A stretch of DNA of 39,899 nucleotides from Rickettsiales bacterium (lineage in GTDB: Bacteria; Pseudomonadota; Alphaproteobacteria; Rs-D84). Positions 17,379-28,032 of this stretch are shown here, in pieces (position 1 is the stretch's first letter; every line of letters starts with the position of its first letter). The stretch is taken from positions 1-39,899 of the forward strand of contig JAITCH010000003.1 in the NCBI GenBank assembly GCA_031283185.1, read 5' to 3'. Both the position numbers and the translations under genes were made by a program. The notes beneath the pieces are model-generated. The model saw only the letters and a list, made by a program, of their open reading frames with translations. It was not told the origin of the DNA and searched no databases.

Positions 17379-18113
17379 ATGATAAAGTCGTCTCCGGAAC
17401 AAATCAAACGGATAACATCAATTCTGACTAAATGCTTGCGGTTGCCATTTTATGATGAGAATGTGCCGGGTGCCTTACTTGAATATGTATTTGCTCAGGT
17501 GCGCGCGGCAAAAGTATTAAATACATATGATTTTGTTGATGTTATTGATAAGAAAAACAAAATTGGCTGGCAGGTTAAATCCACCAAAAATACCACACCC
17601 GTTACTTGGAAACGCGCTAAAATACCAAATTCTGATATGCTGATAAACGCATCTTTTAAGTCAGACAAAGGCTTGCAAAACTTGGGCGATGCAATTATTG
17701 ATTTTTGTAATAGCCATGCTGTGGAGAGTATGAAAAAATATGATCTTGACTATATTGGATATGTCCGATTGATATTATTTAAGAATAAAGTGCTATATTT
17801 TGAACGCAAACTATGCGATAAAAAGAATCCGGTTGTTTTTGATAAATCAAAGTATGTATGGCATTGATCAAACAAGAAAAACACAACTAAAAAAGAGCAG
17901 TTGCAAGCATTACATGGAACAGATACAAAAACAGGCAAGAAAGTATGGGCGTGGCATGGTCTAGGTGAAGATCAACTGCACTTTTGTGGTGAAAAAGACT
18001 GGTGGATTACGCAAGGTTCCGATTGCCCGTTTGCCAATTTGAAGATGCCTGATTCTGATGAAAAGATAGATACAGAGACTTTTCTGTCTTGCTTGGATAA
18101 ATTTTTAAAATAA
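17379..18113 (+). pseudogene. Restriction-endonuclease-like gene broken by in-frame TGA
   Basis: From ATG 17379 (AGGA ribosome site at 17368) the frame encodes 162 residues and stops at TGA 17865-17867. The same frame then continues to 18113 with coherent protein (LQALHGTDTKTGKKVWAWHG, GEKDWWITQG). The upstream part has a PD-(D/E)xK-like pattern: LLEYVFAQ, a DFVDVI strand, then GWQVKSTKN. The downstream WAWHGLGEDQLHF resembles the C-terminus of type II restriction enzymes I recall, but I cannot name one. Replacing TGA by TGG would restore about 244 residues. Other genes here end with TGA (for example 5743-5745), so recoding is not supported. Its last 127 nt are duplicated at 23195-23321. Confidence 0.65.
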
Positions 18114-18158
18114 ATGCTTGCCCATAACTTCTGATAATAATGGCGGAGCGTATAGGAA
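17987..18158. repeat. 172-bp direct repeat, copy 1
   Basis: Matches 23195-23366 with two mismatches seen by eye. It covers the 3' end of the endonuclease-like gene, a short spacer and the tRNA-derived attachment core. Identity stops sharply on both sides. Confidence 0.93.
18136..18158. other. Attachment-site core, copy 1 (att1)
   Basis: 23 bp identical to the end of the tRNA-Ser(GCT) gene at 27236-27258, including the complement of CCA and part of the T arm. It marks the left boundary of island segment A. Confidence 0.85.
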
Positions 18159-18330
18159 GCGCCAAAATCTAAGTCCTTTACAAAAAACCTTGGATTTCTA
18201 ATCTTTTCCGTTTTCCGCCAAATCTTTTTTCTAAGAAATGTTAAGCACTTTTTGACTAATTGTTATACACTTCTCGTTAGACATAGCAATTATACGCTGA
18301 TTTTTGGCATTTGTAAATGTTTTATTTTTA

Positions 18331-18359
18331 TTTACTTGTCCTGGCAAGATAGGTATAAT
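18331..18359 (+). promoter_or_regulatory. Promoter of the cytosine methyltransferase
   Basis: TTTACT (18331-18336), a 17-nt spacer and TATAAT (18354-18359). ACTTGT (18334-18339) and ACAAGT (18360-18365) form an inverted pair bracketing the promoter, a possible self-regulation site. The 18159-18330 stretch otherwise shows only integrase-arm-like sequence. Confidence 0.55.
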
Positions 18360-18393
18360 ACAAGTGAAGGAATTGAATTGAAGGAGAAACCAC

Positions 18394-19740
18394 TTGAAAC
18401 TGGCGGTTGGCAGCATCTGTTCGGGTATTGAAGCCGCATCTGTGGCATGGGGTGGCCTATGCGATTTCAAATGGTTCTCTGAAATAGATACTTTCCCTTG
18501 CGATTTTTTGAAATATAAATATCCTGATACACCGAATGTTGGTGATATGAACAATATATCAGGACTTATAAAAGACCAAAAAATAACCCATGTGGATATG
18601 ATTTGTGCAGGGACGCCATGTCAGGCATTTTCCTTGGCCGGTAAGAAACAAGGGCTAGAAGATGATCGTGGGAATCTAACCCTGGCTTTGATTAATATAC
18701 TTCGTGAAAACGACAAATTCCTTGAAGATGCAGGAAAGGAAAAAACAATCTTGTTTTGGGAAAATGTGGAAGGCGTTTTGAAAGATAAAACAAATGCCTT
18801 TGTTCAGTTTGTATCTGCTTTATCTGGCAGCGATGAGTTGTTGCCAATCAAATGTTCGCAAGCAGGTTTAATTTATGGAAAAACGCGAAATGTGGCCTGG
18901 CGCATACTAGATGCAAAATACTTTGGTATTCCACAACAACGGAAGCGTATATATTTGCTTGCCGGTGGTAAAGATTTTCATCCGGAAAATATATTGTTTG
19001 AATTCGCTGATGAATTCCCCAAAGAATCAACCAAACAGCATGACAAATTCTTTGAGATAGACGGGCATAAAATTGAAGTATTTAGGGAATATACAGACTG
19101 TTTGTATTCTGCTTATGGCACGAAATGGAATGGAAATGCAGCGGCCTATAATGGTTCCTTGTTTGTATTCCAAAATGATAAGTTGAGAAGATTAAGCCCC
19201 TTGGAATGTGAACGACTTATGGGATTCTCTGATAACTATACCGATGTTGATTTTGCATCGCCCACCGCAAGGTATCAAGCGGTTGGAAATTCCTGGGCTG
19301 TTCCTGTCGTCAAATGGTTAGGGAATAGATTATTTAATGGCCATAAAGAAGAGTTTTTTATTAACCACGATAATCACATGGATTTATGGTCAAGAAAGCA
19401 AGAATTCAAAAACGATATTGTATATTACGATTTGACAGACAGCGTGAAATTAAAAGACGGTTTTATAAATACTTCTGTCATGCCCAACAATATCATTCCT
19501 TTTGATATTAGAAACATAATAGATGTGCATTGTTCCAAGAAGTTTTATATATCGCCTGTTGGGTGTCATGGAATACTGCGCCGCGCCATTGAACGAGATT
19601 GCAAAATCAATGAACGGTTGAGACGCGCATTGACTATTGTTTCAAGCCAATGGGAACCCGAAGAAATTGAGAGAGTATCCAGGGTTCAACCTAGGGGAAG
19701 TTTCTCGCAAAGACAAACCGCAACGGTTAGCCCTTTTTAA
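18394..19740 (+). CDS. DNA (cytosine-5)-methyltransferase
   Basis: Transfers a methyl group from S-adenosylmethionine to C5 of cytosine in a specific DNA site, protecting against the paired nuclease. The conserved motifs appear in order in 448 residues: motif I SICSGIEAAS (7-16), motif IV GTPCQAFS with catalytic Cys76, motif VI ENVEG (123-127), motif VIII QQRKR (181-185), a short target-recognition region, and motif X RYQAVGNSWAVP (293-304). The start is TTG with AAGGAG 8 nt before it. The C-terminal extension (about 305-448) has an ILRRAIERDCKINERLRRAL segment seen in phage-type enzymes. It converges on the endonuclease gene with a 14-nt tail overlap. AT-rich, inside island segment A. Confidence 0.95.
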   Translation: MKLAVGSICSGIEAASVAWGGLCDFKWFSEIDTFPCDFLKYKYPDTPNVGDMNNISGLIKDQKITHVDMICAGTPCQAFSLAGKKQGLEDDRGNLTLALINILRENDKFLEDAGKEKTILFWENVEGVLKDKTNAFVQFVSALSGSDELLPIKCSQAGLIYGKTRNVAWRILDAKYFGIPQQRKRIYLLAGGKDFHPENILFEFADEFPKESTKQHDKFFEIDGHKIEVFREYTDCLYSAYGTKWNGNAAAYNGSLFVFQNDKLRRLSPLECERLMGFSDNYTDVDFASPTARYQAVGNSWAVPVVKWLGNRLFNGHKEEFFINHDNHMDLWSRKQEFKNDIVYYDLTDSVKLKDGFINTSVMPNNIIPFDIRNIIDVHCSKKFYISPVGCHGILRRAIERDCKINERLRRALTIVSSQWEPEEIERVSRVQPRGSFSQRQTATVSPF

Positions 19741-20620
19741 TCAGTTTGTTTAATTCTTTCCGCCATGATTCAATATCATACCAAGGGCATCCGATACATC
19801 CACTTTCGGCTACTTTGCCAATTTTAGCACTGCATTTCCAATCTTTACCGCCTTTGGAGTAATAATCAATTCCATAGATGGTTCCCCGCTTGCCTGTTTG
19901 ATAGCAATTCCGACATATTTCTCTTTTCTGTTGATTGCGTTGGTTTGACAGCAATTGAAAATCTTTTTTGATTTCTTCCGCAGTCATGCTCTCTAAACTG
20001 TCCCGTTTAGTATCCAAGTCCCAACGAATTTCGGGGAACTTGTGATCGGGCAACAAGGATTCCGGTTTTACCGTTCTAGCTTCAAAAGCATCAAAAGAAT
20101 TCAATATTTTGATAATTTTTTGCCTTAACTCTGGCGACCATGTTTCATAACCAGAAACACCGCCACGCTTGATAGGCAACAACATGATATGGGTCTTATT
20201 CTTTTTGCACTTTGGGCACTTCATATTTGTATTCGTGGCCAGTGTATATCCAAACTCTTTAATATCTTGGATTCTGCGCGCCCAATTTGGATTCTTTGGC
20301 AATGTGCAATCTACACAGCACCAACCAAAATTTTTGCTTAATATATCAAAAAATGGTTTTGTTGTTTTTGCACCGGATTTTTTCTTCCAAAATTCGGTCT
20401 GTTCCGTTTTCCATGCGTCCCAATTTGCGGGATTCACTTCGTCATAAACTTTTTGCAAGTATTCGTCAATTTGGTCGTCGCTAATATCAATGCCGGTTCT
20501 GCGATATTCGGTCGGAACAGACAAAGACAATTCTTTGTTGCCATATTTGAACACTACATCCACATACTTTTCAGATGCTTTGCTGTGGCTCCGAATACCT
20601 AAGATTTTGATATTTTTCAT
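19727..20620 (-). CDS. Type II restriction endonuclease, HNH-like
   Basis: A 297-residue protein, very probably the nuclease partner of the adjacent methyltransferase. The C-terminal half holds an HNH/beta-beta-alpha-metal pattern: PDHKFPEIRWD (about 184-194), NQRNQQKREICRNC (about 221-234) and a Cys cluster CSAKIG...GCIGCPWYD, with C-x2-C pairs likely to bind zinc. The middle has another zinc-ribbon-like pair set (CCVDC and CPKC). Arrangement is convergent with a 14-nt overlap, a common layout for restriction-modification pairs. An AAGGAA ribosome site precedes the ATG. The recognition sequence is unknown. Confidence 0.8.
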   Translation of the reverse strand: MKNIKILGIRSHSKASEKYVDVVFKYGNKELSLSVPTEYRRTGIDISDDQIDEYLQKVYDEVNPANWDAWKTEQTEFWKKKSGAKTTKPFFDILSKNFGWCCVDCTLPKNPNWARRIQDIKEFGYTLATNTNMKCPKCKKNKTHIMLLPIKRGGVSGYETWSPELRQKIIKILNSFDAFEARTVKPESLLPDHKFPEIRWDLDTKRDSLESMTAEEIKKDFQLLSNQRNQQKREICRNCYQTGKRGTIYGIDYYSKGGKDWKCSAKIGKVAESGCIGCPWYDIESWRKELNKLIKKG

Positions 20621-20711
20621 GAGATTTCCTTGGACTTTTCTTTACAAAAGAGTGTATCATAGTTGGTAGTAAAAAATCAAGGATAAGGTTTTATTAAAAT
20701 TGTGGGACTTG

Positions 20712-20749
20712 TGGATTGATTTTAATTGACAAGAAACTATATAATTGAG
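20712..20749 (+). promoter_or_regulatory. Probable promoter of the OLD-family nuclease
   Basis: A TTGATT hexamer near 20721, about 18 nt, then TATAAT before AACGAGGTGCCAACATG. A second -35-like TTGACA lies closer but at poor spacing. Confidence 0.4.
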
Positions 20750-20772
20750 AACAAATATAACGAGGTGCCAAC

Positions 20773-22599
20773 ATGAAACTTATAAAAGTTGATATTTCAA
20801 ATTTCAGGTCTATTAAAGAAACTTCTATTAATTTCAATGATAGTTGTATTATTTTAGTCGGCGATAATGAAGCCGGAAAATCAAACACATTAAAAGCACT
20901 CGCCGGCGGTATAGATAAATCATTATATGCTGTTTCACCCCAAGATAAACGCAAGTCATTATCAAGCGAAACTATCGACGAAAATAATTTTTATATCCGG
21001 TATGTTTTTGAATTAAATGTTGAAGAAATCGTTGATTCTCTGGATTGGGAAAATAAGCCGGGGCTATTTGAATATGAAGGAAAAAATTTATCCCTTCATC
21101 AGTTTATTAAAAAATTCTTCTCTGTTGCTTCATATAAAACCAATATCGCAACTCAGAAATCGTTTGCCACATATTGGAGTCTTCCAGAAGATAAAATTGT
21201 CGTGAAAAAGGATTTTTATATAGTTAAATCAGAATTTACAGATGAAAAAGGTAATGCGATTGAAAAAGACTCACTAACGACTATAAATAATGAGCATACA
21301 TCAGATACGGCTTTGACGCTAAAAGAGTATATAGAAATTATAGGTAGTGCGGCAAAAGATTATATTACTGAAAATCTACCAGAAGCATATTTGTGGCGAT
21401 ATGATGATAAATATTTGTTGCCTAATTCTGTATCTATTACTGATTTTAGAAACAACCCCGATAATTATCTGTCGTTAAAAAATATTTTTGGATTATCTGG
21501 CCTGTCTGATATTGACGATGCTTTTAATCAAGCCAAAGCAACCGATGGGAGTGAAGATTATATAAATCTTCTTGAAAGGGTGTCTCGGAATGCCACCGAA
21601 GCATTTAGTAAAAAGTGGGGCCACTTCAAAAAAATTGAATTGGATTTGAGAAAAGATGGCGATAATATAATAGTAAAAGTAAAAAGTAGCAGTAATGTAA
21701 GATATGATATGTCGGACCGAAGTGATGGATTTAAACGATTTATAAGCATACTATTGGTATTATCAACGCAGGTGGATACCGAAGAAATTAAAGACGCATT
21801 TATATTTATAGATGAACCCGACAACAGTTTAAGTCCAAGCGGCTGTAAATACTTGCGTGATGAATTATTGGCAATATCTCAAAAAAACATTGTGGTTTAT
21901 ACAACTCATAGCCCATTCATGATAGATAATGGACGGGTTGGAAGACATATAATGTTGCAAAAAGATGATAAAACAGACATTACTTCATTTGAACTCGCAA
22001 CCCCAGACACATATGGCAAAAATGAATTATTATTGCATGCGCTCGGAACATCAGCATTTGAATTTATATGTGATAAAAACTTATTATTTGAAGGTGAAGG
22101 TGATTGCAAAATGTTTTTGGTTGCGATGCAATCTACATCAAATAAAACAATCATTAAGAAATTTGAAAAAATTGGAACATCTTTTGCACATGGGGCACCA
22201 TCTATTAAGAATATTACCCCCGTTTGGAATTTAGCAAAGAAGAAGCTAACTATATTCACAGATTCTGATGAATCATCAAACACGGCGAGAGAATCATACA
22301 AGACAGAAAAAGGGTATGAAGCAGATGCCTGGCTTACATATGAAGATTTAGGCGGACAAAGACACGAAACTATTGAAGATTATATAAATGACGACCTATT
22401 AAAGAAAGCATTAGAGCATATAAACAGCGATATTGACATTGCGACCCGTGAAACTAAAAAAGTTATGCAATTTTTGGAGACATTATCAAAAGATAATAAA
22501 AAATCATTTAAGGAATATATTTACGATAATTTGAAACCAACTAATATAAAGGCAGAATATTTTACAATAATACTAAAAAATCTGGCCGATAAATTGTAA
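20773..22599 (+). CDS. OLD-family ATP-dependent nuclease (ABC ATPase plus TOPRIM)
   Basis: A 608-residue protein. Walker A GDNEAGKSN (30-38), a signature-like DMSDRSDGFKRF, Walker B FIFIDEPDNSLSP (about 342-354) and the His switch THSP (about 377) form an SMC/RecF-type ATPase split by a long insertion. The C-terminal part is a TOPRIM domain, with LLFEGEGD (about 437-444) for the metal-binding Glu and FTDSDESS (about 494-501) for the acidic pair. This is the OLD nuclease architecture, known from phage P2 Old and from GajA of Gabija, which cut DNA during phage infection. No helicase gene follows directly. The UvrD-type helicase lies 1.5 kb away across an attachment site. It has its own promoter and is AT-rich. 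Confidence 0.88.
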   Translation: MKLIKVDISNFRSIKETSINFNDSCIILVGDNEAGKSNTLKALAGGIDKSLYAVSPQDKRKSLSSETIDENNFYIRYVFELNVEEIVDSLDWENKPGLFEYEGKNLSLHQFIKKFFSVASYKTNIATQKSFATYWSLPEDKIVVKKDFYIVKSEFTDEKGNAIEKDSLTTINNEHTSDTALTLKEYIEIIGSAAKDYITENLPEAYLWRYDDKYLLPNSVSITDFRNNPDNYLSLKNIFGLSGLSDIDDAFNQAKATDGSEDYINLLERVSRNATEAFSKKWGHFKKIELDLRKDGDNIIVKVKSSSNVRYDMSDRSDGFKRFISILLVLSTQVDTEEIKDAFIFIDEPDNSLSPSGCKYLRDELLAISQKNIVVYTTHSPFMIDNGRVGRHIMLQKDDKTDITSFELATPDTYGKNELLLHALGTSAFEFICDKNLLFEGEGDCKMFLVAMQSTSNKTIIKKFEKIGTSFAHGAPSIKNITPVWNLAKKKLTIFTDSDESSNTARESYKTEKGYEADAWLTYEDLGGQRHETIEDYINDDLLKKALEHINSDIDIATRETKKVMQFLETLSKDNKKSFKEYIYDNLKPTNIKAEYFTIILKNLADKL

Positions 22600-22643
22600 A
22601 TGTTTCGCTAAATTTGCCCCTTGGTTTTGTTATTCGTTTATTT

Positions 22644-22922
22644 TTATAATGCGATATAATCTTGGGCTTTCTTAATTTTACAGCGATTTTTCGGACTTGT
22701 TTCCGGCGTGGAAATAGGATGATTGCCCTTGTGATTTTCTAAATTCGCGCCGTGGTTAAAATTTTCTGTCGTGGCTGATACTTTATAGCCCAGACCTTCA
22801 AGAGCGGCCTATTTTGTATCTGTGGATTGATGCAGGCCGTCCTGGTCTTCCGAGGGTGATGCCGACGTCCGCAAATTCTCAAAAAGGTCAAAAATAAGCA
22901 AAAAAGTGCCAAAAACAGCCAT
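22644..22922 (-). pseudogene. Possible decayed short gene
   Basis: Reading left from an ATG at 22922 gives 37 residues (MAVFGTFLLIFDLFENL...) to a TAG at 22809-22811. The same frame stays open for another 54 codons (AALEGLGYKVSATTENF...) to a TAA at 22644. Base composition is more GC-rich than the genes on either side. No family is recognised, so this may be chance. Otherwise the 412-nt stretch 22600-23012 shows no gene. Confidence 0.3.
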
Positions 22923-23012
22923 TTTCTTGGCTTGTTGGGGCGTTTTTTAATTCGCGAAGGCCAAAATCCACGACATAATTATATTAGAAACAAACAAAAA
23001 AGGAGTTTCAAT

Positions 23013-23321
23013 ATGAAAAAACAATATCGCAACTGGTTAATCGAAAACGGATTTAGCCTCTACACGCCGACTTACAAGCCCAGCACAGTTTATGACTATT
23101 TGCGCGGCCTGCGTCGTGTTTGCATTGAAGAAAATATGACGGTTGATATGGTTGCAGCGAACATCGACAGCCTTGTCATGAAATATCAACCCATTGGTGA
23201 AAAAGACTGGTGGATTACGCAAGGTTCCGATTGCCCGTTTGCCAATTTTAAGATGCCTGATTCTGATGAAAAGATAGATACAGAGACTTTTCTGTCTTGC
23301 TTGGATAAACTTTTAAAATAA
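23013..23321 (+). CDS. Chimeric ORF: unknown N-domain joined to endonuclease tail
   Basis: A 102-residue ORF with a good ribosome site (AAAAAAGGAG) before the ATG at 23013. Residues 1-60 (KKQYRNWLIENGF, then PSTVYDYLRGLRRVCIEE) resemble a conserved helical N-terminal segment found in assorted small or mobile-element proteins. From residue 62 (GEKDWWITQGSD onward) it is the same as the tail of the broken endonuclease gene at 17988-18113. The junction coincides exactly with the left edge of the 172-bp repeat, so recombination fused two unrelated coding sequences in frame. Function is doubtful. It may be only a scar. Confidence 0.5.
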   Translation: MKKQYRNWLIENGFSLYTPTYKPSTVYDYLRGLRRVCIEENMTVDMVAANIDSLVMKYQPIGEKDWWITQGSDCPFANFKMPDSDEKIDTETFLSCLDKLLK

Positions 23322-23366
23322 ATGCTTGCCCATAACTTCTGATAATAATGGCGGAGCGTATAGGAA
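23195..23366. repeat. 172-bp direct repeat, copy 2
   Basis: Second copy of the repeat at 17987-18158, offset 5208 bp, two mismatches seen by eye. It ends with the attachment core. Confidence 0.93.
23344..23366. other. Attachment-site core, copy 2 (att2)
   Basis: The same 23 bp as at 18136 and at the tRNA-Ser end. It separates island segments A and B. Confidence 0.85.
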
Positions 23367-23597: not shown

Positions 23598-24065
23598 ATG
23601 AAAAAATTACTTTTGATATTCTGTTGTTTGTTTATAACAAATATAGCAATTGCTGATACAAGGGTAAATGTGGAAGTGTTAAATGTTCGTTCTTGTGCAG
23701 GGGCTCATTGTGATGTTGTAGGAAAATTAAAAAGATATGACAAGGTGATTGTAGAAAAATACTCTGGGGAATGGGCTAAGGTCAAGACAAGTAAAGGAAA
23801 CGGATTTGTTATAAAAACTTCTCTACGTTCAGAATCGTATAACTCAGGTATTACGGCTGAGGATATTGGTGCTTTTATACTGATAGTATTTGGGATAGGG
23901 ATTGGATTATTGGTATTGTTTGCTCCTTCGTTAGTGGCTCGTAATAATAAAAATGGGAATAAGATTTTTTGGATAAATCTGTTATTGTTCTGGATTCCTT
24001 TTGTATGGTTGATTTTACTGATTGCGGCCTTATTAGGCGAGCAAAAAGAAAATGGTAAAAAATGA
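23598..24065 (+). CDS. SH3b plus superinfection-immunity-like membrane protein
   Basis: A 155-residue protein with three parts. A signal peptide (1-19, ending NIAIA) is followed by a bacterial SH3 domain (about 21-75, with VNVEVLNVRSCAG and GEWAKVKTSKGNGFV), which usually binds cell wall. Two transmembrane helices follow (about 92-112 and 123-147). The stretch FAPSLVARNNKNGNKI and INLLLFWIPFVWLILLIAAL resembles the Imm superinfection-immunity family first named from phage T4, whose members block DNA entry by a second phage. The stop overlaps the helicase start as ATGA, so the two are translationally coupled. The function as an anti-phage partner is inferred from domain type and context. Confidence 0.65.
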   Translation: MKKLLLIFCCLFITNIAIADTRVNVEVLNVRSCAGAHCDVVGKLKRYDKVIVEKYSGEWAKVKTSKGNGFVIKTSLRSESYNSGITAEDIGAFILIVFGIGIGLLVLFAPSLVARNNKNGNKIFWINLLLFWIPFVWLILLIAALLGEQKENGKK

Positions 24066-26596
24066 TTTTTTTACAAATCTTCACTCTATCGCACATATTA
24101 CAGGTGATACTGATAATCCCTGTGTTGTGGATTTTGTTATCATTACGTAATAAACATAAAAAAGACGAATTATTAAAAATTGCGACTATTGAAAATAATA
24201 AGATTCAATCAGATAAAATAAAGTCTGATATTACTGATAGTCTGAGTCAATTTGACTTTATGGGTGCAGATACAAAATTTCAGAATCAGAATTATATAAA
24301 TCAAAATGATTATAATGAATTAAAAATAAAGTATGTATATGATTGGTTCAAGAAATGTGTGTCTTATGATAAACAACCCTATGAACTAGACTATCAACAA
24401 GTTCAAGCGGTTATTGATAATCATAAAAATTCGTTGGTGGCTGCTCGTGCAGGTTCTGGAAAAACACGAGTTCTTGTGGCTAAAATAATATTCTTAGTTG
24501 CTAAATATAATATCAATTCTGACAAGATTGTTGCTTTTGTCTTTAACAAGGACGCAAGTAGAGAAATAAATACTCGTCTTATGTCTATTTTAGTGGAAGG
24601 CAAAAAAATCATAAAATCTGAAATTGCTATAACATTTCACGCATTTGCATATAAAATAGTTTACAAAGATAAAAAGAATGATATTGGGGAAATTTTAATT
24701 GATCCTGACAGGACGCATTTCATTCAAGATATTGTTAAAGAAATCCCCAGTGATAAAATTTATAAATATTTTAGAGACGAAACATTAAATATTGATAAAC
24801 AAGGTTTTGATGATGATAAAAAGTTTTACGATGCTTTACGTATCAAAGAATATGAGACTCTTGATGGGAAATGGGTCAAGTCTGAATCAGAAAAAATAAT
24901 CTGTGATTTTCTGTTTGAACACGATATTACATATTATTATGAACAAGAGTGTTATATGTATAGTGCGAAAAAGATTGCACTTAGTAATTGGTTAAATTTT
25001 TTTAAGGAAGGTAAAGATTCAATTAAACCTGACTTTTATCTTCCTGACTCTAAGTTAGTATGGGAACATTGGGCTATAACAGGAAAAGAGAAAGAACAAG
25101 AAATAGAACGTATAAATAAAAGTGGTGTAATTGGTTCATACGAAGAATACAAAAGAAGTATGGACTGGAAAAAGATTTTTTATGAACGCAAATGGATTGA
25201 CTCTAATAAACTATCTGATAAGGGTGCTCAACAAATTAAAGATTGGAAAGGATTGATACAGACTAATAGAAAAAACAAGGAAAGTCGGGAAAAGTTTGAG
25301 GAACGATTAAAACAAATTCTTGAATCACACGGGGTAGTGGTAGAGAAATTACCACAAGAACAATTGATTGCAAAGGTTTTGGACAAGCAGACTAACAGAT
25401 TTACAAAAATAATTGTGTCATTTATAGACAGGGCAGAACAGGGGTATCTTTGGAATATAGACGCATTAAAACAAGATATTAAAAGATTTAATAAATCTGA
25501 TTCAAGAACACAGGACTTTTTAGAGTTTGGATTAGATTGTTATACTAAGTATATAAAATGCTTATCAAAACAAATTGCTCCTAAGAATAAGGAATATGCT
25601 CGTTATAGTATGGATTTTGCTCAGTTAATGACTAATGCGGCAAGTCAATTAAGAAGTAGAAATTCAGATTCAATAATTAAAAATAAAAAGTATATTTTAA
25701 TTGATGAATTTCAAGATTTTTCTAAAACATTTCTTAACTTTATAAATGCAACAAAAGCATTAAATAATAATTTTAATTTAATGTGTGTTGGTGATGACTG
25801 GCAAGCAATAAATCGTTTTGCTGGTTCTGATGTTGAGTATTTTCAGAACTTTGAAAATTACTTTACACAAGATTGCACTCGTTTAGAAATGAATACAAAT
25901 TATCGTAGTAGTAAAAATATTGTAGATAATGCTAAACATTTTATAAAAGAAAGTTTAGGGGAGAAAAGTGATTTTGTTGCTCATTCTAAAAATCTGGGAA
26001 AAATTCTTTTATTAAATATAAATGATGTATTTGTTGAATTGAGGACTGGGTATCATAATGACGATTTCTTAAAAAGTGTAATGACTATATCAAAGGATAG
26101 AGCACCTGAGAAAAAATCAGTTCAGTATATAAAGGCGGCTGCGTGGATTATAAATAATAATAAAGATAAGAATATTAAAATATTACACAGAAACAATAAT
26201 ACATCTTTCTCTTTTATGAGTATAGAAAGATTTTATAAAAAATTAAAAGAAGTGTGTGTTAAATATAATATACTTTCAACAAAGGATTTTGATAAAAGGG
26301 TATCAATTAGCACTATAAACTCTGCAAAGGGTCTTGAATCTGATGTAGTGATATTATTGGAAGTGGACGATAGTATAATTCCTCACATACATCACGATAC
26401 AAATTTATATGAAATATTTGGGGAAACTCCTGTCGTTTCTATTGATGATCAGAAAAGATTATTTTATGTGGCAATAACAAGAGCAAAAGAACAATTGTGG
26501 GTATTGCACGATATTGAAAACATTTCACAATTTATAAATTATATGGACAAAGGATTATTGATACGACAGGACGCAAGTAAAATTAAATTATTTTGA
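24062..26596 (+). CDS. Membrane-anchored UvrD/Rep-type helicase with embedded nuclease-like domain
   Basis: An 844-residue superfamily 1 DNA helicase. All main motifs are visible: Walker A ARAGSGKT (about 127-134), motif II LIDEFQDF (about 545-552), motif III GDDWQAINRFAG (about 577), motif IV MNTNYRSS, motif V STINSAKGLE and motif VI FYVAITRAKEQ (about 802). Between motifs I and II lies an insert with SESEKIICDFLFEH (about 273-287) and KPDFYLPDSKLVWEHW (about 322-337), a PD-(D/E)xK/Vsr-like nuclease pattern. The N-terminus is hydrophobic (about 9-28, SHILQVILIIPVLWILLSL), predicting anchoring in the membrane. It overlaps the SH3b-Imm gene by 4 nt. Very AT-rich. Probably a defence protein that processes incoming DNA at the membrane (inference). 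Confidence 0.8.
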   Translation: MIFLQIFTLSHILQVILIIPVLWILLSLRNKHKKDELLKIATIENNKIQSDKIKSDITDSLSQFDFMGADTKFQNQNYINQNDYNELKIKYVYDWFKKCVSYDKQPYELDYQQVQAVIDNHKNSLVAARAGSGKTRVLVAKIIFLVAKYNINSDKIVAFVFNKDASREINTRLMSILVEGKKIIKSEIAITFHAFAYKIVYKDKKNDIGEILIDPDRTHFIQDIVKEIPSDKIYKYFRDETLNIDKQGFDDDKKFYDALRIKEYETLDGKWVKSESEKIICDFLFEHDITYYYEQECYMYSAKKIALSNWLNFFKEGKDSIKPDFYLPDSKLVWEHWAITGKEKEQEIERINKSGVIGSYEEYKRSMDWKKIFYERKWIDSNKLSDKGAQQIKDWKGLIQTNRKNKESREKFEERLKQILESHGVVVEKLPQEQLIAKVLDKQTNRFTKIIVSFIDRAEQGYLWNIDALKQDIKRFNKSDSRTQDFLEFGLDCYTKYIKCLSKQIAPKNKEYARYSMDFAQLMTNAASQLRSRNSDSIIKNKKYILIDEFQDFSKTFLNFINATKALNNNFNLMCVGDDWQAINRFAGSDVEYFQNFENYFTQDCTRLEMNTNYRSSKNIVDNAKHFIKESLGEKSDFVAHSKNLGKILLLNINDVFVELRTGYHNDDFLKSVMTISKDRAPEKKSVQYIKAAAWIINNNKDKNIKILHRNNNTSFSFMSIERFYKKLKEVCVKYNILSTKDFDKRVSISTINSAKGLESDVVILLEVDDSIIPHIHHDTNLYEIFGETPVVSIDDQKRLFYVAITRAKEQLWVLHDIENISQFINYMDKGLLIRQDASKIKLF

Positions 26597-26627: not shown

Positions 26628-27101
26628 TCACCGAATTTTTTGCGAAAAAAGTATTGTATTTTTGTTTTTATACGTGATACTATTTCTGGCTTTTCTTGAA
26701 AACTGGCTGATTTCTGGGGATTTTATCAGTTTTTGGCATCTCTCAAATTTGAGGCAGGGTTCATTATTTTTCTTTTGATGTATATCCTCAACTTTATTCT
26801 TTTTAGAAAGTCTTGCAGGGGTTGCAAACGGATTTTCAATATTGAGTGTCTGACCTGATTCAGACTCAAAAATGAGTCCTTTGTAAAGACGTTCTAGGTC
26901 AGTAAAAAATGACGTTGGCATTGTCATAACAAGCATATCCTTAACTTTCTCACGTGCCTCAAAGTAGTTAGTGGTGTGTAAAGATGTTCGTTTATAACGT
27001 CTTTTACCATTAACTCTTGGTGTTTCTATGATAAAATAAAACGTTCCGTTTCGCAACCACAGATTGTTTTTTGCATCACAATATGAATCACACTTTTTCA
27101 T
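26628..27101 (-). CDS. Truncated tyrosine-type integrase (N-terminal part only)
   Basis: A 157-residue ORF reading away from the tRNA-Ser gene, with its start 140 nt from the tRNA 3' end, where integrases of tRNA-targeting islands normally lie. The N-terminal portion, LWLRNGTFYFIIETP, KRRYKRTSLHTTNYFEAREKV, resembles the arm-binding domain of phage-type integrases. The core-binding and catalytic domains (with R-H-R-Y) are missing: the frame ends in low-complexity sequence just 31 nt from the helicase stop. The element could therefore no longer move by itself. An alternative reading is a small DNA-binding protein with an integrase-like N-domain. Confidence 0.6.
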   Translation of the reverse strand: MKKCDSYCDAKNNLWLRNGTFYFIIETPRVNGKRRYKRTSLHTTNYFEAREKVKDMLVMTMPTSFFTDLERLYKGLIFESESGQTLNIENPFATPARLSKKNKVEDIHQKKNNEPCLKFERCQKLIKSPEISQFSRKARNSITYKNKNTILFSQKIR

Positions 27102-27235: not shown

Positions 27236-27258
27236 AATAATGGCGGAGCGTATAGGAA
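27236..27258. other. Attachment-site core at tRNA-Ser 3' end (att3)
   Basis: The original copy of the 23-bp core, covering the end of the tRNA gene and 5 nt beyond. It is repeated at 23344 and 18136. Confidence 0.85.
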
Positions 27259-27329
27259 TCGAACCTATGGACCGGTATAACCCGGTCACGGTTTAGCAAA
27301 CCGCTGCATTACCGCTCTGCCAACGCTCC
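27241..27329 (-). tRNA. tRNA-Ser (anticodon GCT)
   Basis: On the minus strand the acceptor GGAGCGT pairs with ACGCTCC, then discriminator G and an encoded CCA (27243-27241). The anticodon loop TTGCTAA gives GCT. The long variable arm GACCGG...CCGGTC is diagnostic of a class II tRNA. T stem ATAGG/CCTAT. Its 3' end is the integration site of the tandem islands to its left. Confidence 0.96.
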
Positions 27330-27561: not shown

Positions 27562-28032
27562 TTAGCATCCATCTTCGTTGTTTTTTGTATTAAACGGTAA
27601 GTAATGAGTGGCAATTTCTACCTGTTCTTTTGTGCCAATCCATTCGCTATCTACATATTCCCACTCTACCCAGCACAAATCAATAATGTTTTTTATAGAT
27701 TCTTTGCTACTATCTTTTTTGCTATCTTCCAAAAATTTTTTTATCCTATTTTGCACGGAAGAGGATGTGTGATCGCCCCTAAGATGATCACTACAAATCC
27801 TATTCGATAATTTTTTCGACAATCCTATATAAACCAATACCAAATTTTTCAATACATCTATTTTCTTTTCCAATTTATCGACATTAATTTTTTTGCCACA
27901 TAATTTCAATAAAGTCTCTTTGGGCATATATATTTTATATATTCCAGGTTTTTTCGCTGGTCTGTTATCTGGCTTGATATTTTTATCTTTACGCATATCG
28001 CCCATATTTGTAAGTTTGCTAATCTGTCCCAT
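27562..28032 (-). CDS. GIY-YIG nuclease-family protein
   Basis: A 156-residue protein with a single GIY-YIG domain: KKPGIYKIYMP (about 28-38) and LVYIGLSKKLSNRICSDHL (about 71-89), where the Arg and the preceding GIY/YIG elements form the active site, and a later Glu in WIGTKEQVEIA. Small stand-alone members occur in mobile elements and as nucleases of unclear role. The start is uncertain because Met occurs at residues 1, 10 and 13. It is much more AT-rich than clpX, which it follows by 27 nt on the same strand, so it looks like a recent insertion between the SRP RNA and the clpPX operon. Confidence 0.7.
   Translation of the reverse strand: MGQISKLTNMGDMRKDKNIKPDNRPAKKPGIYKIYMPKETLLKLCGKKINVDKLEKKIDVLKNLVLVYIGLSKKLSNRICSDHLRGDHTSSSVQNRIKKFLEDSKKDSSKESIKNIIDLCWVEWEYVDSEWIGTKEQVEIATHYLPFNTKNNEDGC

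Follow-up and report, generated by a model that had tools for sequence, protein, structure and literature searches.

Organization of the locus

The window, by which we mean the whole 39,899-nt stretch of DNA analyzed here (Rickettsiales bacterium, Rs-D84; GCA_031283185.1, JAITCH010000003.1, positions 1 to 39,899, forward strand), contains two plus-strand open reading frames encoding a small SH3b protein with two membrane helices (SH3b-TM-TM) and a UvrD-type helicase (Table 1). The stop codon of the first overlaps the start codon of the second in an ATGA, which makes translational coupling of the two genes likely, and this anatomy is as the initial annotation had described it.

Table 1. Coordinates of features in and around the SH3b-helicase unit
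Feature	Position	Strand	Basis
Third repeat copy, bounding neighboring restriction/OLD unit	18136..18158	+	Repeat search
Left att-like direct repeat (AATAATGGCGGAGCGTATAGGAA)	23344..23366	+	Repeat search
SH3b-TM-TM protein, 155 aa	23598..24065	+	Pfam SH3_3, hydropathy
SH3b domain, residues 27-72	23676..23813	+	Pfam match
ATGA overlap (SH3b stop/helicase start)	24062..24065	+	Sequence; no clear Shine-Dalgarno ahead
UvrD/HelD-like helicase with inserted nuclease domain, 844 aa	24062..26596	+	Pfam, NCBIfam, structure model
Predicted N-terminal membrane helix, residues 8-26	24083..24139	+	Hydropathy; missing from nearest clade
Walker A, ARAGSGKT, residues 128-135	24443..24466	+	Alignment, motif check
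Endonuclease I-like PD-(D/E)xK domain (putative), residues ~252-405	24815..25276	+	Alignment, profile, model; E277, D324, E335, K370
Helicase motif II, IDEFQD, residues 547-552	25700..25717	+	Alignment, motif check
Integrase stub, 157 aa	26628..27101	-	DUF6538-like N-terminal part only
Right repeat copy, at 3' end of tRNA-Ser gene	27236..27258	+	Repeat search
tRNA-Ser (GCT), integration site	27241..27329	-	tRNA call

A 23-bp direct repeat, AATAATGGCGGAGCGTATAGGAA, occurs three times in the window, at 18136, 23344, and 27236. The latter two copies define a single att-bounded unit of 3.9 kb that comprises the SH3b gene, the helicase gene, and an integrase stub, and in which the SH3b and helicase genes are the only intact cargo; a search of all frames at 26628-27101 returned no integrase catalytic domain. 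The GC content of the unit is 28-30% (about 29% in the helicase gene), compared with 46-49% in most host flanks. The preceding repeat-bounded unit (18159-23366) contains a C5 methylase, an IceA-like restriction enzyme, an OLD gene, and a small ORF, so that the island is composed of two or more abutting units. The proposal of a tRNA-borne island is therefore upheld and sharpened by the three repeats, and the restriction and OLD genes reported nearby are indeed present, but they belong to the neighboring unit and not to that of the pair. The 3' part of the small ORF (22932-23321) and the att repeat that follows it are duplicated in nearly identical copies of ~170 bp (17986-18158 and 23194-23366), which suggests that the first two units were joined by recombination at tRNA-Ser. 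As an empty-site comparison, the clpP/clpX region does not adjoin tRNA-Ser in genomes G001 and G003.

The helicase core and its membrane anchor

The downstream protein belongs to the UvrD-type superfamily 1A (SF1A) helicases (107.3 bits against a cut-off of 23), with Pfam matches to UvrD-helicase (1.5e-30) and UvrD_C (3.3e-19), intact motifs I-VI, and a full-length structure model (pLDDT 82) that matches PcrA/UvrD. It resembles helicase IV and UvrD, Rep, and PcrA in motifs and fold, and its motif III, VGDDWQ(A/S)I, is that of the helicase IV branch; it differs from these enzymes in carrying a nuclease-like insert and an N-terminal membrane helix. The latter, already proposed in the initial annotation, is predicted from a Kyte-Doolittle mean of 2.26 over the 19 residues 8-26, whereas the highest hydropathy among the homologs classed as non-anchored is at most 1.66. 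A basic stretch, RNKHKK, directly follows the hydrophobic residues and suggests that the body of the helicase would be cytoplasmic.

Since the pairing of an OLD nuclease, GajA, with a UvrD helicase, GajB, defines Gabija (PMC10568477), and since the island likewise holds an OLD gene (20773-22599) and a UvrD-type helicase, the two could be regarded as a dispersed Gabija system, and GajB is in fact the top PADLOC model for the helicase (1.9e-40). However, the GajB models align with separate segments of the common helicase core, most of them have only ~500-635 positions as against an 844-aa protein with an insert and an anchor, and the best models for the OLD protein are Old, the top match, and AriA rather than GajA. 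Moreover, the genes are not adjacent but lie 1.46 kb apart, separated by two ORFs and an att repeat. We rejected assignment to Gabija on these grounds and regard a dispersed form of the system as hardly credible.

The inserted nuclease-like domain

Between motif Ia and motif II, the helicase core is interrupted by some 310 residues (approximately 205-515), the central part of which carries the nuclease-like features. In an alignment of 47 homologs, from which three rows from plasmid records were left out, S274, E277, Y293, E294, P323, F325, E335, and Y363 are invariant and D324 and K370 nearly so, and the insert is conserved across phyla. When compared with the PDB, the insert profile matched four chains of T7 endonuclease I (E 0.0016-0.0089) and nothing else, placing E277, D324, and E335 of the insert over the corresponding E, PDF, and E of the phage enzyme. 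Individual inserts matched Phage_endo_I in 9 of 47 cases (best 1.3e-4) and DUF1064 and TPD in three cases each; the window's own insert matched no Pfam family.

In the AlphaFold2 model of the insert (pLDDT 79), the elements run helix-strand-strand-strand-helix-strand, which is the order of the PD-(D/E)xK core, at moderate model confidence and with a first strand of two residues in DSSP. The top Foldseek matches of this model were mostly PD-(D/E)xK nucleases (PvuRts1I, McrC, AbaSI, Vsr, and cap-snatching enzymes), with a best E-value of 0.22 and no single match significant. The insert has in common with T7 endonuclease I and other PD-(D/E)xK enzymes such as Vsr, PvuRts1I, and McrC the glutamate of helix 1, the YE and PDF motifs, the second glutamate in strand 3, and the order of helices and strands, although the sequence likeness is weak and the domain is here embedded in a helicase. 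A further difference is that the position of the ExK lysine is occupied by an aromatic residue, W337, for which the near-invariant K370 in the next helix may stand in. From the conserved residues, the T7 endonuclease I match, and the models, we conclude that the insert likely has a PD-(D/E)xK nuclease fold with a putative nuclease activity, in agreement with the annotation of a PD-(D/E)xK-like insert.

The insert profile also found a domain, at 1e-9 to 4e-14, in proteins of ~930-1270 aa from relatives (L243:4690-8478, L244:4836-8582, L245:7284-11099, and L246:8550-11336) that begin with (V)QHxSIRxPWxDNG or a similar motif and form a separate family whose nuclease domain is similar. In Saccharibacteria (L110-L114 and L125), the homologs are short, at ~510-600 aa, and the search for a PDF motif in them was negative; upstream of several lies an ORF of ~470-490 aa that may encode the remaining half of a protein that has been split.

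Distribution and genomic context of the helicase family

Homologs of the helicase are present in bacteria and archaea. Within the host order, the insert was found in 8 of 201 genomes, four of which, namely that of the window, G120, G171, and G167, encode close relatives, while the remaining four encode proteins of ~930-1270 aa of another kind. Searches of plasmids and phages by tblastn with the helicase returned only distant solo helicases, which across most of their length are no more than ~28% identical, and a scan of viral contigs with the SH3b protein and with the helicase gave no matches for either. Because raw PADLOC counts around the homologs (386 versus 5 families) are inflated by redundant models, we instead scanned 20 neighbors drawn at random from the two genes on each side of the homologs, at a threshold of 1e-8. 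Six of the 20 matched PADLOC, compared with no more than 6 among 112 control genes, which came from arbitrary regions of six same-class genomes, all of them complete or long, whose taxa were not matched to those of the homologs (Fisher p = 0.003). Not all of the six are strong and specific matches, and with only four of them counted p rises to 0.045. Many homologs have no recognized defense neighbor. Three members of the window's own clade share its helicase and insert architecture and sit in BREX, Shedu, or restriction contexts: one lies between PglZ and BrxL (L121), one overlaps a preceding SduA gene by 4 bp with BrxL nearby (L098), and one comes after PglX (L099). Unlike the window helicase, none of the three has an anchor, and their companions are these defense genes rather than an SH3b gene. 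The locus at L121:1998-12314 is BREX-like, with the helicase-nuclease homolog behind an N6/N4 methylase.

An N-terminal hydrophobic helix is present in 18 of the 63 homologs in our tree, on which the anchor label changes at least nine times, six of these changes being forced by well-supported branches. The window helicase sits on a long branch of its own in a group with 18 proteins that lack an anchor (support 100), apart from the anchored clades, which are archaeal or from Bacteroidota, Bacillota, and Spirochaetota. Because of this grouping, its anchor is most simply explained as a separate acquisition, with the reservation that this is a quick tree on which changes cannot separate gain from loss.

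The helicase could alternatively be of the helicase IV type and act in DNA repair or replication restart, serving the upkeep of the island rather than defense. DNA helicase IV (NF008276) is its best NCBIfam match, and an N-terminal extension also occurs in several non-anchored homologs; however, the score of 178.5 bits is far under the cut-off of 543. The conserved nuclease insert, the enrichment of defense genes among the neighbors, and the accessory rather than core distribution of the helicase, which has a close relative in so few genomes of the order, likewise argue against a role in island upkeep, which we consider quite unlikely. A search of the literature for this helicase-nuclease architecture yielded no description; the main text of a 2026 survey of BREX diversity (PMC12839542) has no mention of UvrD, PcrA, or superfamily 1, and SF1 appears once, in the title of a reference. 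Helicases with an endonuclease I-like insert are a widespread, defense-associated family that is unnamed in the libraries and papers searched.

The SH3b protein and its relation to the helicase

The SH3b-TM-TM protein consists of a signal peptide (residues ~1-19), an SH3b domain with a Pfam SH3_3 match of 32.2 bits against a cut-off of 27 (1.3e-7), and membrane helices at residues ~90-108 and ~128-146, as predicted from Pfam and hydropathy. No PADLOC family matched it at E 0.1. Its closest homolog, in genome G011, is 72% identical, with dN 0.19, dS 1.33, and dN/dS of about 0.14 between the two, which indicates that the gene is maintained by selection. The G011 gene lies 45 bp downstream of a tRNA-Leu gene and persists with no helicase beside it; at this locus (L198:9386-10569), where GC is below that of the surroundings, it is convergent and overlapping with a gene for a membrane-anchored NERD protein. 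Another SH3b-membrane protein is encoded in G114 (L199:7330-8220), on the same strand as and 158 bp downstream of a tRNA-Tyr gene. SH3b genes thus seem to accumulate behind tRNA genes; the tRNA-Leu and tRNA-Tyr genes beside them showed no direct repeats. The third full-length SH3b-TM2 homolog, in G272, is 40% identical and also stands without a helicase, and tblastn against plasmids found no full-length SH3b homolog.

The helices of this protein had been likened to the T4 Imm superinfection-immunity family, which raises the possibility that it blocks DNA entry alone as an Imm protein, the helicase being unrelated cargo. The C-terminal part of the protein does match Imm_superinfect (PF14373), and purifying selection on the gene and the location of two relatives directly downstream of tRNA genes are compatible with such a role. 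Nevertheless, the match reaches only 16.4 bits in the window, far under the gathering cut-off of 27.9, and 19.9 bits in G011, also under it, and membrane hairpins are of low complexity and match easily. Imm-like small proteins are, moreover, scattered across 31 of 60 relatives, with only eight above the cut-off. The likeness is therefore no pointer to DNA-entry exclusion, and we think a stand-alone Imm function very doubtful.

The initial annotation proposed that the pair could recognize envelope or incoming DNA and degrade it at the membrane. Read as a dedicated two-gene system, this would mean that the SH3b protein detects damage to the envelope or the entry of a phage and guides the anchored helicase-nuclease to incoming DNA. 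The ATGA overlap, the predicted membrane location of both proteins, and their status as the sole intact cargo of one att-bounded unit are all consistent with such a system, as is the NERD gene adjoining the G011 homolog, itself a membrane-anchored gene of nuclease type, and membrane sensing by DNA-targeting systems has precedents in Zorya, Kiwa, and SNIPE (PMC12904381). On the other hand, when SH3b profiles were run against all six frames of 123 loci with scored helicase homologs (the best 80 loci when 84,980 genomes were scanned, along with viral and plasmid loci), the only match was in the window itself. Three of the 183 genomes of the host family, the window's among them, have an SH3b relative, and across these genomes and the 201 genomes of the order searched for the insert, both genes occur together only in the window's genome. 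The helicases of G120, G171, and G167 have neither an N-terminal anchor nor an SH3b neighbor, the latter two lying on short or cut contigs. Only one of the three full-length SH3b-TM2 genes is accompanied by a helicase, and the NERD gene of G011, being convergent, is not cotranscribed with the SH3b gene. With the partner gene beside the helicase in a single genome, a conserved two-gene system is not supported and we judge it unlikely, whereas the gene overlap and the shared att unit leave room for a lineage-specific partnership, in which the two proteins may act together here. That the pair belongs to no named system did stand, as PADLOC (2023) gave no matching system.

Several membrane-anchored homologs from Bacteroidota and Treponema (L011:2888-6172, L026:3864-7124, and L149:6765-10334) have a gene no more than 15 bp upstream that encodes a probably secreted protein, unlike SH3b. 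The small proteins upstream of the L118, L149, L102, and L026 helicases gave no Pfam match and are thus not SH3b partners in disguise.

Discussion

We lean toward the view that the helicase is a self-contained effector against mobile DNA, for which the SH3b protein is not an obligate partner. The enzyme would combine a UvrD/HelD-type motor with a built-in endonuclease I-like PD-(D/E)xK domain, be a member of a widespread accessory family carried by defense islands, and have gained its N-terminal membrane anchor in the window's lineage. It would translocate on DNA, unwind it, and cut it with the inserted domain. If the anchor was gained in this way, unwinding and cutting of foreign DNA would probably take place on the cytoplasmic side of the membrane, with the anchor holding the enzyme at the point of entry of phage or conjugative DNA. 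In this view, mobile islands would carry the SH3b-TM-TM protein as an envelope protein in its own right, maintained by selection; here it shares an operon with the helicase, and it may help the helicase or simply be co-expressed with it. Should this be correct, motor, nuclease, and membrane anchor would be united in one chain, as a one-protein version of Zorya, Kiwa, or SNIPE. The family is common, with BREX, Shedu, and restriction neighbors and repeated gain or loss of the anchor, and it is unnamed in the sources searched; it therefore offers a testable family of effectors regardless of how the SH3b pairing is eventually judged. We speculate, as a long shot, that SH3b-TM-TM proteins are exchangeable envelope sensors for different anchored nucleases, the UvrD-endonuclease I protein here and TM-NERD in G011, and that repeated anchoring evolved to strike entering DNA.

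The nuclease of SNIPE is of the GIY-YIG type. DUF4041 and GIY-YIG Pfam matches were sought in both proteins of the pair and neither was found. SNIPE, which carries DUF4041, is a membrane-bound nuclease that acts at phage DNA injection, and in Zorya, Kiwa, and SNIPE alike membrane localization is a means of specificity (PMC12904381). By analogy, the predicted anchor on a putative DNA nuclease in the window could confer specificity in the same manner, with the difference that a helicase motor is present. The pair is also similar to Kiwa and Zorya in comprising a membrane component and a DNA-acting cytoplasmic component, but the SH3b protein matches no PADLOC model, KwaA, ZorA, and ZorB included, and, unlike those systems, the SH3b and helicase genes do not form a conserved two-gene unit. 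Outside the att-bounded unit, between tRNA-Ser and clpX, the window contains a gene with a GIY-YIG domain (27562-28032; GIY_YIG_2, 37 bits).
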